From positions 1 through 64,000 of IMG/VR virus record IMGVR_UViG_3300025438_000014: a stretch of DNA of 64,000 nt; one strand, written 5' to 3'. Below, piece after piece: positions 5,337 to 58,286 of this stretch (its first letter is position 1; the number at the start of each line of letters is the position of its first letter). The notes below the pieces were generated by a model. The model worked only from the letters and a program-made list of their open reading frames with translations. It was not told the DNA's origin and did no database searches. This DNA comes from a virus. The translations under genes were made by a program, and so were the position numbers.

Positions 5337-5540
5337 TCACCCCAATTTATACAGCAAGTGACCAACTTCGTCAGTAACTCTTTGTTTAAACTCTGGAAAG
5401 GATATAGTATCTTCACTTTTACAAAATTGTAGATTAAGAGGATGCTCAACACCATCAATATATGTAAATAGGAAAATATCATCATTGGGGAAACAACGCA
5501 TAGAAACATTGTATGCTACTTTGTTTATTGTTATACGCAT
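5337..5540 (-). CDS. unknown small protein
   Basis: 67 residues beginning MRITINKVAYNVSMRC. The ATG at 5540 is chosen because a good GGAGAG ribosome site lies just upstream; the longer reading frame would run into the tmRNA coding piece. No family is recognised. Confidence 0.65.
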   Translation of the reverse strand: MRITINKVAYNVSMRCFPNDDIFLFTYIDGVEHPLNLQFCKSEDTISFPEFKQRVTDEVGHLLYKLG

Positions 5541-5551
5541 GACTCTCCAAT

Positions 5552-5862
5552 AAAAATAGGCCCGTTCTGTTGCAAGGTGGAGCCCATACCCCATGTCGTT
5601 ACGCTGCTAGAGCGTAACCCATAGGTGCACTATTTTTGTTTGCATCTATAAAGTTTCTTGCGGTTACAGTCGCTTGCGCACTGGCTTCTAGCTTACTCTT
5701 TGATACCTGTCGATCCTATTTCGACCCCATCATCTACCTACTAAGTTCATTCTTTATCGTTACTAAGCGCTTAGCATGAATATAACGAGTTATCGTAGTA
5801 GGTAGGTGGTGGAGTCGCTGGGTACTGCCCCCAGGTCCAGAATATCTCCAATTCACATAATT
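5552..5862 (-). ncRNA. ssrA: circularly permuted two-piece tmRNA
   Basis: Read on the minus strand, the acceptor piece comes first: a T-stem-loop CTGGG/CCCAG with loop GGCAGTA, then CGACTCC, A and CCA ending at 5807. After a 78-nt intervening segment whose ends pair (CCTACCTACTA with TAGTAGGTAG), the coding piece starts at 5728 with GGGGTCG. GGGGTCG pairs with CGACTCC over all 7 positions, forming the acceptor stem with discriminator A. P2 (GGTATC/GATATT) also pairs across the two pieces. The coding piece holds a resume codon GCA and the tag ANKNSAPMGYALAA with a TAA stop (5643-5599). This is the gene order of alphaproteobacterial tmRNA, which is known to be processed into two RNAs and to rescue stalled ribosomes with SmpB. 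Outer ends are approximate. Confidence 0.92.
5599..5643 (-). other. tmRNA proteolysis-tag reading frame
   Basis: Fourteen codons from resume codon GCA to TAA encode ANKNSAPMGYALAA. The hydrophobic ALAA end is what ClpXP-type proteases recognise on tagged proteins; this is family knowledge. It lies inside the coding piece of the permuted tmRNA. Confidence 0.9.
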
Positions 5863-5877
5863 GAAGCGATGATTTTA

Positions 5878-6039
5878 TTATACTTCGTTTCTTAGTAGCT
5901 TTTCTAAATCTTTTTCATGTGGCTCATACTCTACCCATAGATCAGGACCAGAGATTTCCCCATGTTGTGGAATGTTACGAGCAGCTATTACACCTGATAA
6001 AAAGGCGTGTTTTAGCATACGTGCAATTAGCAGTGTCAT
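5878..6039 (-). CDS. unknown small protein
   Basis: 53 residues (MTLLIARMLKHAFLSG...LRNEV) with its start 1 nt from the stop of the ATP-grasp gene and an AAAGG ribosome site inside that gene. It ends just before the tmRNA. No family is recognised. Confidence 0.6.
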   Translation of the reverse strand: MTLLIARMLKHAFLSGVIAARNIPQHGEISGPDLWVEYEPHEKDLEKLLRNEV

Positions 6040-7138: not shown

Positions 7139-7779
7139 AGGTTTGGCCATAGCTGTTTACAAATGCTTTCACACTTATTAATATCAAGCCAATCATCTGT
7201 ACGAATACCACTTTCCATATCTAAGTAGTAAGGTCCGCGAGCTTTAACCTTACGATTAATCTCTAGTACATTTTCTGGGTTAATACCACCAGCGTACCCC
7301 ATAAGGAACTCTGTTCTAAAGTCAGGGTAGTCGCCCTCAATTACTGTTCCTCGCCCACCAGAAGTATCGTAAAGAGCAGTAAATTGATGAGTAGGATTTT
7401 TCTCACTACGATGCTGAATAATAAAGCTAGTTTCAGCAAATATATTAGACATAACACCAAGTTTAGGAAAGTCATAACGCTTATCTAACAGGTTAATCTG
7501 AATACGATCAAAGTAGTCATACCAAGTCTCTACTCTACCTTCTTGAAAGTCTGTAGCTTTACTACCGCATACGTGTAAAGCACAGTCTAAGCTCATTAAG
7601 TCTGAACAATCTACAAAATCCATAATCACACCTTCATCTGGGTATCTAGATTTTGATCCAGGATTGGTACCGTATAGCACACCCCATTCAATAGGGAAGC
7701 GATTAGATAGATCAATACAATCGTCAGTATCAGTATTTTCGTCAATACCAATAAAAGATACAAATTCAGGAGTTCTCAT
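7135..7779 (-). CDS. TrpF-like (beta/alpha)8 barrel protein
   Basis: About 214 residues. The C-terminal half matches phosphoribosylanthranilate isomerase landmarks: ALYDTSGGRGT (phosphate and substrate loop), YAGGINPENV, and YLDMESGIRTDDWLD in place of the usual DxSSGVE. TrpF isomerises phosphoribosylanthranilate in tryptophan synthesis. No other trp gene is present, so the real substrate may differ. The ATG at 7779 is preferred to a TTG four codons upstream. Confidence 0.65.
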   Translation of the reverse strand: MRTPEFVSFIGIDENTDTDDCIDLSNRFPIEWGVLYGTNPGSKSRYPDEGVIMDFVDCSDLMSLDCALHVCGSKATDFQEGRVETWYDYFDRIQINLLDKRYDFPKLGVMSNIFAETSFIIQHRSEKNPTHQFTALYDTSGGRGTVIEGDYPDFRTEFLMGYAGGINPENVLEINRKVKARGPYYLDMESGIRTDDWLDINKCESICKQLWPNL

Positions 7780-27767: not shown

Positions 27768-27841
27768 GGGAGTGTAGTTCAATGGTAGAACATGGGTCTC
27801 CAAAACTTATGACGAGGGTTCGATTCCTTCCACTCCTGCCA
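27768..27841 (+). tRNA. tRNA-Trp(CCA)
   Basis: Acceptor GGGAGTG/CACTCCT, discriminator G, loop CTCCAAA, T-loop TTCGATT, CCA encoded. Confidence 0.9.
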
Positions 27842-29951: not shown

Positions 29952-30026
29952 GCCTGTATAGCATTGTGGCAATGCAGCAGCCTTCAAAACTGACGTAAGT
30001 GGGTTCGACACCCTCTACAGGCACCA
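29952..30026 (+). tRNA. tRNA with TCA anticodon (opal-reading)
   Basis: Perfect acceptor GCCTGTA/TACAGGC with ACCA, D-stem GCAT/ATGC, T-loop TTCGACA. The seven-nt loop CTTCAAA gives anticodon TCA, which reads UGA. The anticodon stem has only three good pairs, so the reading is less certain. Genes here do end in TGA. Confidence 0.6.
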
Positions 30027-34769: not shown

Positions 34770-36275
34770 ATGAAAAATATTCTATCAGTACTAACCGCTA
34801 TCCTACGAGTTGATGGCTATAAGCCTTCCCAATGGGTACAAACACCTACTAACACTACGGGAATCAGTTCTTATATTGAGTCCCGTGGCGGAGCAGCAAA
34901 AAGTGTCTTCTTCGGCCCACAAGCCTTTATTAAAGAGTATCTACTAGTACCTATTACAGTAAGCGATGTTAAGTTTGCAAAAGCTGTATTTGCGATTTAT
35001 GGCGCACCCTTCAATGAAGAAGGTTGGATGACTATTGTAAACGAGTATGGCGGCTTTCTACCTCTTGAGATTGAGGCAGTACCAGAAGGTACTTATATGG
35101 AGACACGCAACGTACAGGTACAGGTTACTGCTACTGATGATCGTCTAGCATGGTTGACCTCGTATGTTGAAACCGCGCTTCTACGAGGTGTATGGTATCC
35201 TTCTACCGTTGCTAGTGAGTCAAGAGAATACAAAGTTATGTTGTTAAAAGGTCTGTATGCAACCTCTGATATTCCTATAGATGTTCTACGTGATGTAGTA
35301 GTAAAGTTCTCGCTGCATGACTTTGGTGCTCGGGGCGCTTCTTCTTCAGAAACAGCTGTATTAGGTGGTATGTCACACCTTGTTAACTTCTGGGGAACAG
35401 ATACTGTTGAAGGACTTATCGGAGCGTATAGCTTCTATAATGCTGATATTACGAGTGCAGATGCTCCACCAGTCGGTAGGACTGTTCCTGCCTCTGAGCA
35501 TAGTGCTATCACTTCTTGGGGCCGTGCTAATGAAGCTGCTGCTTTTGAAAATATGATTGATCAGTTTAGTGAGCCAGGTTCTATCTATGCTTGCGTTTCT
35601 GATAGTTTTGATATTTACAACGCAACTTCAAATATCTGGGGAACTCAACTAAAAGATAAGGTAATTGCTTCTGGGGGTACCCTAGTTGTACGCCCTGACT
35701 CAGGTGATCCACTTACTATGCCTATCAAAGTACTTGAAATGTTAGCTGAAAAGTTTGGCTATACTGTAAATAGCAAAGGGTATAAGGTACTTGCAGTACG
35801 TAAGAGCGATGGAAGCCCTATTGTTAAAGTAATTCAGGGGGATGGTCTAGATAAGAAATCACTTCCTATTCTTATTGCCAATATCATAAGTGCTGGTTTT
35901 AGTCTTGAAAACATTGCTTTTGGTATGGGCGGTGGTCTACTTCAAAATGTTAATCGTGACACCTTGAAATATGCAATGAAAGCTTCTGCAATCCGTGTAG
36001 GAGAAGGTGACTGGGTAGGTTTCTCTAAAGACCCTGTTACTGATCCAGGTAAAAAGTCTAAAGAAGGACGCCTTGGCCTTATCTATACTTGCGGTATTGG
36101 TAGCTGTAGCTTTAAGACTGTACCTAAGCATATTGCTGACGAAAAAGGCAAAAATGTTATGCGAGTCGTATATAGAAACGGTAAGCTGCTAGTAGATGAT
36201 AACTTTGAGACTGTTCGCGCGCGCGCAGAGGTTCAAGAGATTGAGTTTACTAACGAGCCTGTAGAAAGATACTAA
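34770..36275 (+). CDS. nadV: nicotinamide phosphoribosyltransferase (NAMPT)
   Basis: 501 residues, full length. Landmarks: SRGGAAKSVFFGPQAF, FSLHDFGARGASS, SDSFDIYNATSNIWG and VVRPDSGDP, the phosphoribosyl and nicotinamide site. The enzyme joins nicotinamide to PRPP to make NMN for NadM. It ends at a strong terminator. Confidence 0.95.
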   Translation: MKNILSVLTAILRVDGYKPSQWVQTPTNTTGISSYIESRGGAAKSVFFGPQAFIKEYLLVPITVSDVKFAKAVFAIYGAPFNEEGWMTIVNEYGGFLPLEIEAVPEGTYMETRNVQVQVTATDDRLAWLTSYVETALLRGVWYPSTVASESREYKVMLLKGLYATSDIPIDVLRDVVVKFSLHDFGARGASSSETAVLGGMSHLVNFWGTDTVEGLIGAYSFYNADITSADAPPVGRTVPASEHSAITSWGRANEAAAFENMIDQFSEPGSIYACVSDSFDIYNATSNIWGTQLKDKVIASGGTLVVRPDSGDPLTMPIKVLEMLAEKFGYTVNSKGYKVLAVRKSDGSPIVKVIQGDGLDKKSLPILIANIISAGFSLENIAFGMGGGLLQNVNRDTLKYAMKASAIRVGEGDWVGFSKDPVTDPGKKSKEGRLGLIYTCGIGSCSFKTVPKHIADEKGKNVMRVVYRNGKLLVDDNFETVRARAEVQEIEFTNEPVERY

Positions 36276-40529: not shown

Positions 40530-40599
40530 ATATAAGAACTTCTTGACGTATTATCTACGTACTAATTATGTATTCCTTATATAGTGAAGTTCTTATAAT
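40530..40599 (+). ncRNA. 70-nt hairpin RNA
   Basis: Outer stem ATATAAGAACTTC with GAAGTTCTTATA directly after a promoter; inner part folds as ACGTA repeats. Followed by an AGCTTGC/GCAAGCT hairpin (40661-40686). Confidence 0.5.
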
Positions 40600-40706
40600 T
40601 TGCTTACTGTTCAGTAACTCACTCAGCGTTGGGGGATGACGTCGTTTAATAGCAAACACAGCTTGCAATACCGTGAGGCAAGCTACTAAAAAAAATTAAT
40701 TTTAAT

Positions 40707-40736
40707 CTTGCTCTATGCTTGATTTTGGTTTATATT
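40707..40736 (+). promoter_or_regulatory. phage promoter for large ncRNA
   Basis: CTTGCT, 18 nt with TGCTT, TATATT. Confidence 0.75.
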
Positions 40737-40739
40737 AAG

Positions 40740-41765
40740 ATAATAAGAATTGGCGGTATAGCGTCATTAAGGATACCATATAGCAATATATGCAAAGAGG
40801 TGATTTCTACATAACCTCACTACTCTAGTAGTAGCCTATCTATAAAACCCTAAGTTAGTTGTAACCGTGTATGCATGAAGTGCAACGCTTCATTAATGGA
40901 GCTAGGTAAGAAGTTAAGTATATAGTCCGAAAGGATAAGTCCAGGCCAACGGTGAGGACGAATACGGTGGGAGCTGTAACTACGTAATTCCAACTTAACG
41001 ATTACTAAATACTAATAGGAGATTACGTTATAGTCTGACTATTCGCGTAGAAAGGCGACGTAATAACACAAACGGTGAGGGCTTTAACGAGCCAAAGTCG
41101 TGAAGTGTGGTTGAGTATCCCGCAAGGAGAAAAACAGGAGGTGTGTTGCATTTTGTATCTAACAAGGTATGAAGCAACTGGAACAGCACATCTTAGTAGA
41201 TTAACTTAGTCCAATGGTTAGGACGTCTGATCCCACATCAGAAGTTAAGAGTTCGAGTCTCTTAGTTTTTATGAAAAAAGCGAAAGACTGTTCCGGTATA
41301 TTGTTAAAAGTGCTTAATGCCTTAGTCGAAAGACAATAAGGCTCATGATAGCTCGCAAGGCAGGATTGATTGTTCGGAAAGAAGACGTAATAGTTTAGCG
41401 ACTATGAACTGCCCGACGAAGGTAGACGGAAGATTGAAAGACGAGTAGCAATATGCGACAGGAGAACCGCCTCTCCTCAAAAAAGGCAGCACTGAGAGAT
41501 ACTAGGATAGCTTCGGCACTTAGTGGATACGAATTAACGCTCCATAGCAACGGATACGGTACGGTTCTAAGGCTCTCACTCGATGGTGTAATCTCAGCCA
41601 ATCTACAAAAAAACTTTGATGTTAGATAAAGCTAACACGACCAGAGATAACACTGGGTGCTAAAGTGATACTAGCAAAACACAATCCGTGTCAGTTGCGT
41701 TACCCGCTGGCTAATGGTGGTATGCTGTGCCCACTAACTATAATTATTTTAATGATACATAGAAT
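40740..41765 (+). ncRNA. large ornate ncRNA, GOLLD-like
   Basis: About 1 kb without a gene, starting right after a promoter. It is full of short stems closed by GNRA loops (TCC-GAAA-GGA, GTC-GAAA-GAC, CC-GCAA-GG) and has a tRNA-like domain embedded at 41200. Size, phage location, tRNA neighbourhood and embedded tRNA fit GOLLD RNA, a family known from phages and lake metagenomes. I cannot align it to the GOLLD consensus here, so it could be a new RNA of the same style. Confidence 0.55.
41200..41271 (+). tRNA. tRNA-like domain inside the large ncRNA
   Basis: D-arm GTCC/GGAC, perfect anticodon stem TCTGA/TCAGA with loop TCCCACA, perfect T-arm AAGAG-TTCGAGT-CTCTT. Position 33 is C instead of T, the acceptor pairs only 5 of 7 and no CCA is encoded, so it is probably not a working tRNA. 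Confidence 0.55.
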
Positions 41766-41773
41766 ACCAATAT

Positions 41774-41847
41774 ACCTTGTGGACCCTTTTGATATGGGTA
41801 TGGGCGCGAGTTCAATGTTCTAGGTTCGAATCCTGGACAAGGTACCA
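41774..41847 (+). tRNA. tRNA-like, perfect acceptor but no normal anticodon arm
   Basis: ACCTTGT/ACAAGGT acceptor with ACCA, ACCC/GGGT arm and T-arm CTAGG-TTCGAAT-CCTGG. The middle does not fold into an anticodon arm. TTTTGAT in the first arm would read TTG if that arm is used. Confidence 0.45.
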
Positions 41848-42150
41848 AGATAATATGCTGACGATGACTCACATAGCCCTATGAATGAGAAACGTAATAT
41901 TAGTCTTTAGAGCTAAGCAGTATATTTAATCATTAGTCGTATGAGAAGTGCGGGCAATTTAGTTATTATCATTAACTAAGCTAATGTTTACTAATTTAAG
42001 AGATAATATGCACTAATCTGTATAATTGTTATTATGTTGCTTACTTCACCCAAGTGATATGATATTTACCCCCTTCTTGCCTTGTGAAGAAGCTAGGAAG
42101 TAAAGTAGTTATAAGTGTTTCTACATTATACAGTTTAGTCTATATTATAT
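41848..42150 (+). other. non-coding spacer
   Basis: About 300 nt without a gene. A weak promoter-family match (GTTGCT, 18 nt, TGATAT at 42036-42065) precedes tRNA-Met. Nothing else clear. Confidence 0.3.
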
Positions 42151-42227: not shown

Positions 42228-42235
42228 AACTTTAT

Positions 42236-42303
42236 TGCAGGATAGCCTTAAGCTAGATAAGTTGTGAAACTTATTGTGAGTTAAACCCTCTCTCCTGCAA
42301 CCA
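42236..42303 (+). tRNA. tRNA-His-like(GTG), degenerate T-loop
   Basis: Perfect acceptor TGCAGGA/TCCTGCA, ACCA, anticodon stem ATAAG/CTTAT with TTGTGAAA, T-loop TTAAACC instead of TTCRANY. A canonical His tRNA is at 45774. Confidence 0.5.
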
Positions 42304-42324
42304 TATTCAAAGAAAGATTATACA

Positions 42325-42578: not shown

Positions 42579-43115
42579 GTGTCAAATATTAAATATCCGG
42601 CACTTGTTTTAAATGCTGATTACAGTCCTATTAGTGTGTTTCCGCTATCTACTTGGGGTTTTGAAAGAACTTTACGAAACTTCTTAAAAGGAAGAATTAC
42701 ACCACTAGAGCACTATGATGTTACGCTACGTTCTCCGTCTTTTGAGTACCAGCCGCCTTCGGTTATTGCTTTAAAGAAATACGTAAAACGACCACAGAAT
42801 GTTGTATTCAATAGAGTAAACATTTTCAGACGAGATAACTTTACTTGTCAGTATTGTGGTGATGTTCACTTGCCAAGAGATCTAACTTTTGACCATGTTG
42901 TTCCTCGCGCTAATGGCGGTCCAACTTCGTATGAAAACATTGTAGCATGTTGTGTTCCTTGTAATACTCGTAAAGGTTCATCTACTCACATGAAACCTGT
43001 GAGAACACCTAAAGTACCTTCTGTTAGAGATCTAGCACGAGCTAGTCCTCCAAAAGAAAAACTTCACGCTTCTTGGATAGACTATCTATACTGGAGCGGT
43101 GTATTAGAACAGTAA
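42579..43115 (+). CDS. HNH endonuclease
   Basis: 178 residues. FTCQYCGDVH, LTFDHVVPRANGG and ENIVACCVPCNTRKG form the zinc-anchored HNH core. The N-terminal half (NADYSPISVFPLSTWGFERT) matches the stand-alone HNH proteins of alphaproteobacteria and their phages, which may be host-like rather than homing enzymes. Confidence 0.85.
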   Translation: MSNIKYPALVLNADYSPISVFPLSTWGFERTLRNFLKGRITPLEHYDVTLRSPSFEYQPPSVIALKKYVKRPQNVVFNRVNIFRRDNFTCQYCGDVHLPRDLTFDHVVPRANGGPTSYENIVACCVPCNTRKGSSTHMKPVRTPKVPSVRDLARASPPKEKLHASWIDYLYWSGVLEQ

Positions 43116-56744: not shown

Positions 56745-58286
56745 ATGCCATTTGAATATCAAGGGACTAAAACACGTCGTTTTCCTGCTAATTCCCCTCG
56801 CAAATCTAACCCACCACGCCAAGGTAACTCCTTTGCCGATGCAGTTCGCGCTGCTATCGTTGATGAAAAAGTACTTACCACAAACGGTATGACCGCTCGT
56901 AAAACTACTGGCGATGCAGTACTTGACTTCTTCACTAAAGCTGGAGCAAGCCGTGGTAAACTTCTAACTGATTCTTTCAGTGCAGCACTTGCAGAAGATG
57001 AAACTCTTGCAATCCGCGCGCTTCTATGGACCCGAGATATTACCGAAGGTGCTGGAGAGCGTAAGCAGTTCCGTGATATGCTTCAAGTACTAGAGCGTCA
57101 TAATGCTTACACTGCTGGACAGATTATGACTCGCATCCCAGAACTTGGGCGTTGGGACGACCTATTCTCGTACCGAGACCCAGTTAACGCACGTCGTGCT
57201 GTTGAACTATTCGCTAATGCACTTCGTGCAGGCAATGGTCTAGCCTTCAAATGGGCACCTCGTGAAAAGTCTGCTCGTCGTAGCGAAGCTCGTGTACTAA
57301 TGCAAGCGCTTGGAATGACCCCAGGTAACTATCGTCGTTTCCTATCTCGCGGCACTTCTGTTGTAGAAAGCCAAATGGCTTCTAAAGAGTGGGAAGCTAT
57401 TAACTTCTCGCACGTTCCTTCTGTTGCTTCTTCACGCTATCAAAAAGCGTTTGGACGTAACGCCGGAGAAGCTTATAGCGCATATCTACAAGAGCTTAAA
57501 AAGCCACAAGCACAACGTGATCCACGCGTTAAGATCAATGCAGCTGCGATTCACCCATACGAAATTGTTAAAGCAGTCCGTACAGGTGTACCCTCCGCAG
57601 CAGATGCACAATGGGAGGCACTACCTGACTTTATGAACGGTACTTCTGTTCTTCCTATGATTGATACTAGTGGGTCTATGCGTGGTGGAAATCCAAGTGC
57701 TATCGATGTTGCACTTTCCCTTGGTCTATATGTTAGTGAGCGTAATAAGTCCGCGTTCAAAGATATGTTCCTTAACTTTAGCGGTGTATCAGACTTCCAA
57801 ACTACCAAAGGAACTCTAACACAGCGTCTACGCCAAGTTGATACTGATAAGTGGCACATGAACACTAACATCGGTGGAGCCTTTGCTAACATCTTAAATG
57901 TTGCTACACATAATAATGTACCAGCAGAAGACATGCCAGAAGTTCTACTAATTCTTTCTGACATGCAGTTTGATAACGCAAATCGTAGTATAGATTATAG
58001 TGCAAATCGTAGCCCTCGCTATGGTAGCTTTAAACCTTGGAATCCTTCTGCGGTAGAACTTGCTACACGCATGTATCACCGTGCAGGATACGAACTTCCA
58101 AAGCTAGTATTTTGGAACATTCGAGGAGATGCAAATAGCCCTGTTCGTTTCGATGAACTTGGTACTGCGATGATTTCTGGGTACTCACCAGCTATCATGA
58201 AATCTGTTCTTTCTAACGATCTGGAACATTTTACTCCTTACAGTGTTATGCGTAAGACCCTAGACAATGTACGTTATGATTTTTAA
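56745..58286 (+). CDS. Ro60/TROVE-like ring protein with vWA domain (DUF2828 type)
   Basis: 513 residues. Residues 50-290 are helical repeats (LDFFTKAGASRGKL, RALLWTRDITEGAGERKQFR, FKWAPREKSARRSEARVLMQ, RFLSRGTSVVESQM) as in DUF2828/TROVE proteins. Residues 295-500 are a vWA domain with DTSGSM (D307), TNIGGAF and LILSDMQFD forming the MIDAS. Ro60 and its bacterial relative Rsr are rings that bind Y RNAs and misfolded RNAs and work with exonucleases. Five Y-RNA-like modules lie just upstream, one in its leader. Ro identity versus DUF2828 proper needs a profile search. Confidence 0.8.
   Translation: MPFEYQGTKTRRFPANSPRKSNPPRQGNSFADAVRAAIVDEKVLTTNGMTARKTTGDAVLDFFTKAGASRGKLLTDSFSAALAEDETLAIRALLWTRDITEGAGERKQFRDMLQVLERHNAYTAGQIMTRIPELGRWDDLFSYRDPVNARRAVELFANALRAGNGLAFKWAPREKSARRSEARVLMQALGMTPGNYRRFLSRGTSVVESQMASKEWEAINFSHVPSVASSRYQKAFGRNAGEAYSAYLQELKKPQAQRDPRVKINAAAIHPYEIVKAVRTGVPSAADAQWEALPDFMNGTSVLPMIDTSGSMRGGNPSAIDVALSLGLYVSERNKSAFKDMFLNFSGVSDFQTTKGTLTQRLRQVDTDKWHMNTNIGGAFANILNVATHNNVPAEDMPEVLLILSDMQFDNANRSIDYSANRSPRYGSFKPWNPSAVELATRMYHRAGYELPKLVFWNIRGDANSPVRFDELGTAMISGYSPAIMKSVLSNDLEHFTPYSVMRKTLDNVRYDF

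Follow-up and report, generated by a model that had tools for sequence, protein, structure and literature searches.

The closest described system is the GOLLD RNA of phages, which was found by cryo-EM to form a 14-mer RNA cage with a variable linker inside, and the same report also mentions tRNAs that are sometimes present in the linker and ribosomes that bind GOLLD in pull-downs (PMC12286853). A GOLLD of a Lactobacillus brevis prophage was reported to be dispensable (PMC7567579). A rise of expression during lysis counts among the traits of the family. The GOLLD of the Mycobacterium tRNA array contains a tRNA-like piece in its linker, as does the locus described here, and the piece is termed a "pseudo-tRNA" (PMC6582537). 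ROOL RNA is likewise an ornate phage RNA that builds a cage with an interior linker (PMC12286853), whereas its sequence and fold differ and no ROOL Rfam match was found in the window. The occasional presence of tRNAs within the GOLLD linker is already in print, and what is added here is the nature of that "tRNA"; no account of acceptor loss and loop variation in GOLLD linkers was found in searches of an open-access library for GOLLD.

The window, that is the whole stretch of 64,000 nucleotides analysed here, was taken from a virus record of 64.4 kb (IMGVR_UViG_3300025438_000014). The RF02032 (GOLLD) model was found by cmscan to match 41138-41600 with 167.2 bits (E 3.8e-45) over its complete length (model positions 1-416), against the Rfam curated cut-off of 150 bits. 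The sequence-only reading had suggested GOLLD and had proposed a search with the covariance model, and the search supported that interpretation. The score is low for the family (up to 328.7 bits in relatives), and the model of 416 positions spans the GOLLD 3′ region only. The element sits in a tRNA island, with 29 tRNA genes (28 besides the linker tRNA) and one tmRNA found in the window by ARAGORN. The features of the element are as follows.

40751..41137, plus strand: GOLLD 5′ domain, equivalent to the cap domain of the published cage (blastn, shared motif, alifold; exact 5′ end inferred)
41138..41600, plus strand: GOLLD 3′ region with linker insertion (RF02032 full model, cmscan 167.2 bits)
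41200..41271, plus strand: tRNA-like domain in the GOLLD linker (ARAGORN tRNA-Trp(cca); RF00005 49.2 bits)
41203..41206, plus strand: 5′ strand of the half acceptor stem, pairs 4-7, AACT with AGTT (parse; covariation in 87 linkers)
41231..41237, plus strand: anticodon loop TCCCACA with C33, anticodon CCA and C37 (sequence, cloverleaf parse)

On the evidence of the sequence, a phage GOLLD RNA of about 850 nt is encoded at approximately 40751-41600. It was found to contain the two-region layout of GOLLD, with a conserved 3′ region at 41138-41600 and a more divergent 5′ region, and a length of at least 800 nt; with RF02032 it shares the full-model match, the two domains, the phage tRNA island and the variable linker that holds a tRNA. 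The earlier observation of a structured, gene-free RNA with a tRNA-like domain was confirmed as real, the longest open reading frame on either strand being 68 amino acids with no convincing gene. Its length of about 1 kb had to be shortened, as the last 165 nt of 40740-41765 lie beyond the model. The stems capped by GNRA loops, described as abundant, were found to be enriched but few, with two of at least 4 bp against 0.18 expected. The dedicated promoter was not borne out by a sigma-70 scan, which gave no plus-strand site at 40555-41940, hence none ahead of GOLLD, and overall no excess of sites over shuffles (5 found against 4.1 expected).

The 5′ domain opens with the conserved motif GGCGGTATAGCG at 40752, which was found in 10 of the 152 loci searched, namely the window and nine others. 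Homology of this domain to other GOLLD loci was found by blastn, for example in L173, with 67.7% identity over 405 nt at window positions 40743-41132. The consensus fold of seven diverse 5′ domains was found by alifold to have −70.9 kcal/mol against a column-shuffle mean of −4.2, and contained 87 pairs, of which 57 were changed on both sides. Covariance in homologues, whose lack had been named as a ground for rejecting the reading, was found in this fold as well as in the linker stems. Judged by its NAD-synthesis protein (window 34770-36275), the virus is closest among cultured phages to roseophages, for instance Phaeobacter phage MD18 and DSS3_MAL1 (about 54% identity), and we infer a host among the Rhodobacterales. 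In these phages a GOLLD is present that encloses an annotated tRNA-Arg. At the DNA level the window element was found to align with cultured GOLLD-bearing roseophages and Caulobacter phages, and none of 14 control genomes contained a GOLLD match.

In the cmscan alignment, the tRNA match at 41200-41271 was found to fill the GOLLD linker that varies among members. The domain contained 4/4 pairs in the D-arm, 5/5 in the anticodon arm and 5/5 in the T-arm, together with GG in the D-loop and TTC in the T-loop; the perfect anticodon and T stems, the C33 and the poor acceptor noticed earlier were all found again. Acceptor pairs 2 and 3 were both U-U, so that a seven-pair acceptor is absent. The nucleotides after position 73 were TGA instead of CCA, whereas a check of the 28 remaining tRNA genes of the window showed CCA in 27. 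The loop contained C33 and C37 in place of U33 and a purine at 37. Enzymatic addition of CCA could occur in principle, but the acceptor is damaged. The core of this linker was closer to free tRNAs than to other linkers, one of 14 such cases among 87 linkers. The linker of the published GOLLD env-38 is a disordered stretch of 42 nt (PMC12286853), whereas the window linker holds a mimic with C33, C37, half an acceptor and no CCA.

Four further sequences of the window touch upon this subject. A tRNA-shaped sequence after GOLLD (41774-41849) contained a perfect 7-bp acceptor, ACCA, a D-arm and a T-arm but a poor anticodon arm (4/5 pairs, loop CGCGAGT), and neither ARAGORN nor Rfam made a call on it. 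The stretch 42235-42305 contained acceptor-like GCAGGA...TCCTGCAACCA with internal stems and a fold of −20 kcal/mol, and was not recognised as a tRNA. Besides tRNA-Trp genes at 27768 and 30930, ARAGORN found at 29952-30026 a tRNA with anticodon UCA, possibly a reader of UGA. The minus strand at 5508-5910 contained a phage permuted (alphaproteobacterial) tmRNA with the tag ANKNSAPMGYALAA.

Relatives were collected by a scan for the conserved 3′ motif, which gave at least 119 stretches. RF02032 was found at E <= 0.001 in 90 of the 123 records searched (28/40, 29/41 and 33/42 per batch), four of them cultured phages, and above the cut-off in 87 (26, 29 and 32). In one GOLLD subgroup ARAGORN located a tRNA 371-404 nt ahead of the 3′ motif, its anticodon varying widely between records; this tRNA-linker subgroup is named T-type here and was defined by an HMM of the part after the linker. 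In the other subgroup (L021, L024, L042 and others) a tRNA-Met often begins some 34 nt downstream of the point where the 3′ motif starts. One large virus record (G111:C1) contained two GOLLD matches, at 167864-168218 and 215867-216331, with 199.9 bits for a strong match and 40.2 bits for a highly divergent one. Among the T-type records sampled without regard to linker flanks, a linker tRNA was present in 27 of 29, the exceptions being L004 and L090; when L033 is counted, a weaker GOLLD without a linker tRNA that falls below the HMM threshold, the figure becomes 27 of 30. Later scans were keyed on the sequences flanking the linker and not on the tRNA.

The 152 T-type loci gave 108 unique linkers, and 98 of these satisfied a written cloverleaf rule that demands TTC in the T-loop and GG in the D-loop, as did 844 of the 1142 unique free tRNAs of the same loci. 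The ten that failed were L004, L090, L149, L151, L172, L175, L186, L188, L176 and L192; the same ten, which could not be parsed into regular cloverleaves, were set aside from 97 to give a set of 87 linkers, and eight of the ten were set aside for the sample used for U36 and clustering. Twenty loci were excluded because they scored low, matched in part only or had little sequence upstream, among them L033/L136, a GOLLD without a linker tRNA. No recognisable tRNA domain was found in the T-type linkers of L004 (DSS3P8), L090, L151 and L175, the linkers of L149, L152 and L186 (70-71 nt) contained D-like and anticodon-like arms without a T-arm, and those of L176, L188 and L192 contained odd T-arms. 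A prophage route through bacterial genomes was tried and given up: none of 53 pattern matches in bacterial genome contigs lay within a T-type GOLLD by the post-linker HMM, no GOLLD was found in four whole genomes searched, and only 1 of 397 Mycobacteriales genomes gave a weak GOLLD, below the cut-off at 144.5 bits, whose linker position holds a tRNA-like UCA domain that lacks CCA. The Mycobacterium GOLLD belongs to another phage or host lineage with little sequence similarity, and the post-linker HMM did not match it.

CCA was found to be encoded in 1 of the 98 linkers (L153), whereas 812 of the 844 free tRNAs encode it. Acceptor pairs 1 to 7 were formed in 54, 35, 49, 94, 94, 96 and 97% of the 98 linkers, whereas they were formed in 88-93% of the 844 free tRNAs. 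The position of the acceptor was set from the D-arm and the T-arm, and pairing itself was therefore no criterion of selection. Across the 87 linkers, two-sided changes were found throughout the D and anticodon stems, without exception of any pair, as well as at T1-T4 and at acceptor pairs 4-7. The pairs of acceptor 4-7, D, anticodon and T1-T3 were far above shuffles, with T4 and T5 nearly invariant, whereas acceptor pair 2 scored no better than shuffles and pairs 1 and 3 scarcely better. The elbow nucleotides U8, A14, G18G19, T54, T55, C56 and A58 were conserved in 99-100% of the 87, a value that is partly built in, as the parser rewards TTC and GG. A bulged outer acceptor helix was considered as a rescue of pairs 1-3 and rejected, its score of 4.80 against 4.49 in shuffles (7 of 300 shuffles reaching it) being at most weak; free tRNAs scored 8.55 against 4.90.

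When linkers were grouped at 85% identity on the GOLLD part, 46 clusters contained a tRNA-like domain and a single one of these had CCA, so one family was not counted repeatedly. The cores of 68 of the 87 linkers were closer to other linker cores than to any free tRNA, which indicates that the domain has long been kept, and the 14 cores nearer to free tRNAs suggest that replacement by a fresh tRNA may occur. This comparison of linkers shows selection on all three arms (D, anticodon and T), on the elbow and on the inner acceptor half; the outer acceptor half has been lost together with the CCA end, and the anticodon loop is free to change. The linker domains of T-type GOLLD are probably tRNA mimics, in which the fold is kept, the charging end is lost and the anticodon is unconstrained for codons. 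In tmRNA, too, a partial tRNA fold forms part of a larger RNA. tmRNA retains the upper half of the tRNA with the acceptor and CCA, and is charged, whereas the GOLLD linker retains the anticodon, D and T arms and has lost the acceptor end.

The anticodon loop of the linkers was found to be variable. Loops that were not of 7 nt were present in 17 of the 98 linkers against 17 of the 844 free tRNAs. Among close pairs (at most 6% difference outside the anticodon loop), the loop differed in 28 of 39 linker pairs against 3 of 92 free pairs, and when each sequence was used once, in 8 of 18 against 3 of 80. In these independent linker pairs the loop changed at a per-site rate of 0.168, compared with 0.023 in the scaffold and 0.120 in the outer acceptor. 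In the Caulobacter phages, the loop CTCTTAA was found in Ccr5, Karma, Magneto, Swift and RBC57, CGTCCTA in phiCbK, Ccr29 and Ccr32, and CATCCTA in BL57. Up to five of the seven loop bases differ among these phiCbK-like phages, and all else in the 105 nt that precede the post-linker motif is identical; between Karma and phiCbK, 22 differences were found in about 1596 sites, five of them within the 7-nt loop. The database labels of these domains are tRNA-Lys and tRNA-Gly, and the G33 and U37 of CGTCCTA are foreign to normal tRNA. The canonical loop CTCTTAA was found in 13 linkers, so decoding may persist in some. As judged from these comparisons, the linker loop is freed from decoding, and it may be either relaxed or driven to vary.

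The linker of L172 (IMGVR_UViG_3300009154_000117, 7600-7715) was found to contain a T-arm, ACTCCCC-ACCA, an AT-rich joint and GGGGAGT, followed by the presence of a D-arm and an anticodon arm. When the halves were placed in normal order, ARAGORN called a cloverleaf with a 7-bp acceptor and ACCA. The linker thus reads as a circularly permuted tRNA that connects to GOLLD by way of the variable loop instead of the acceptor; the arrangement is known from one contig and may be an assembly error. A pattern scan for permuted tRNAs gave at least 120 stretches; of 119 new loci among them, none matched the GOLLD HMM, and L172 was the sole GOLLD among the permuted-tRNA matches listed. The abstracts found in a search for permuted tRNAs of phages and bacteria name algae and archaea.

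That the GOLLD match is spurious, or that the RNA is an unrelated ornate one, is hardly credible: the 167.2 bits are near the cut-off, but the match is full-length with a very low E-value, and the alignment to GOLLDs of cultured phages and the clean control genomes argue against it. An ordinary working tRNA, excised from the GOLLD transcript and charged, is very unlikely. Both ARAGORN and Rfam call a tRNA, canonical loops (CTGTTAA, CTCTTAA) are present in many linkers, and a cut in the linker would be tolerated, given that the 5′ and 3′ domains are separate in the solved structure (PMC12286853). However, CCA is nearly always missing and the outer acceptor pairs are near random, the window loop contains C33 and C37, and the window has two other tRNA-Trp genes and CCA on almost all its other tRNAs. 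The pseudo-tRNA of the Mycobacterium GOLLD was also undetected by Northern blot (PMC6582537). A decaying pseudogene, carried as a neutral passenger in a linker that tolerates anything, would agree with the linkers that have no tRNA, with a loop rate per site about that of the outer acceptor (0.168 against 0.120), and with the term pseudo-tRNA chosen by the Mycobacterium authors (PMC6582537). It is nevertheless judged unlikely, as the stems covary with few broken pairs, the elbow bases are almost invariant, close pairs differ by 0.023 per scaffold site against a mean difference of 0.166 in the GOLLD 3′ region, and the kinship of most linker cores with one another speaks for long retention.

The variation of the loop bears on two further explanations. 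If the linker were bait for host anticodon nucleases, shown by the cages as tRNA mimics, the loops would track the nuclease target and the free tRNAs would be spared. The retention of the anticodon arm and elbow but not of the acceptor accords with this, as do the Caulobacter phages, in which five of the seven loop bases are changed and the rest of the domain is unchanged, and U36 was found in 55 of 74 linker loops against 329 of 986 free ones, mainly with Lys, Asn and Arg(UCU) anticodons, in counts that ignore shared descent. Phage tRNAs are known to counter anticodon nucleases (PMC10264068; PMC11555353). With these nuclease-resisting tRNAs the linker domains share phage encoding and changes in the anticodon loop (PMC10264068), whereas those tRNAs are taken as working and the linker domains have no charging end. 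Many linker loops are unlike any normal tRNA (8-nt loops, G33, U37), the rate in independent pairs fits relaxed as well as diversifying selection, and a closed cage may exclude proteins; bait is accordingly rated a rather improbable role. It is still less probable, indeed highly improbable, that the anticodon loop is a homing or recombination site whose variation reflects evasion of neighbouring HNH endonucleases. Shortly after GOLLD there is indeed an HNH gene (42579-43115), and HNH genes are frequent in tRNA islands, but the loops of the adjacent free tRNAs are stable (3 of 80 independent pairs) and no intron-like insertion was noticed in the linkers inspected by eye.

The reading preferred here, a GOLLD RNA that carries a tRNA mimic with no part in translation, is very probably correct as far as sequence comparison can tell. 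The best explanation overall, which we consider probable, is a GOLLD cage with tethered tRNA mimics for a partner. By analogy with GOLLD env-38, the window RNA would form a hollow 14-mer cage with the linker facing the lumen. The linker carries a domain of tRNA origin, probably retained for its L shape rather than for decoding. With its acceptor end lost, the domain would not be expected to serve as a normal substrate in CCA addition, in charging or for RNase P. Each cage would display the tethered mimics to a partner able to read the tRNA elbow or the anticodon arm, the candidates being the ribosome or a tRNA-acting host enzyme, which would be concentrated or sequestered during infection. This step, in which the mimics of the cage concentrate or sequester a reader of the elbow or anticodon arm, is put forward tentatively. 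A protein with DUF2828/DUF7788 (56745-58286) was considered as a general partner, as a Ro60-like protein might bind a tRNA-like RNA; it has a weak von Willebrand-like match and its relatives are RNA-binding in some phage annotations, but it was rejected, since of 41 records that contain a GOLLD-like RNA a single one encodes it.

An arms race, in which a fast-changing loop on a tRNA scaffold without a charging end is shown to a host factor, is a doubtful extension of the same reading. Within its lumen the cage might then trap or lure anticodon nucleases, or else further defence enzymes that act on tRNA, and phages would swap the loop, or in L172 even permute the whole tRNA, with the L shape kept. 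The Caulobacter phage phiCbK and its relatives, propagated on a common laboratory host, are natural loop-swap variants for a direct test. If the linker is a conserved mimic and not a passenger, the search for the function of GOLLD would narrow to the readers of the tRNA elbow and the anticodon arm.
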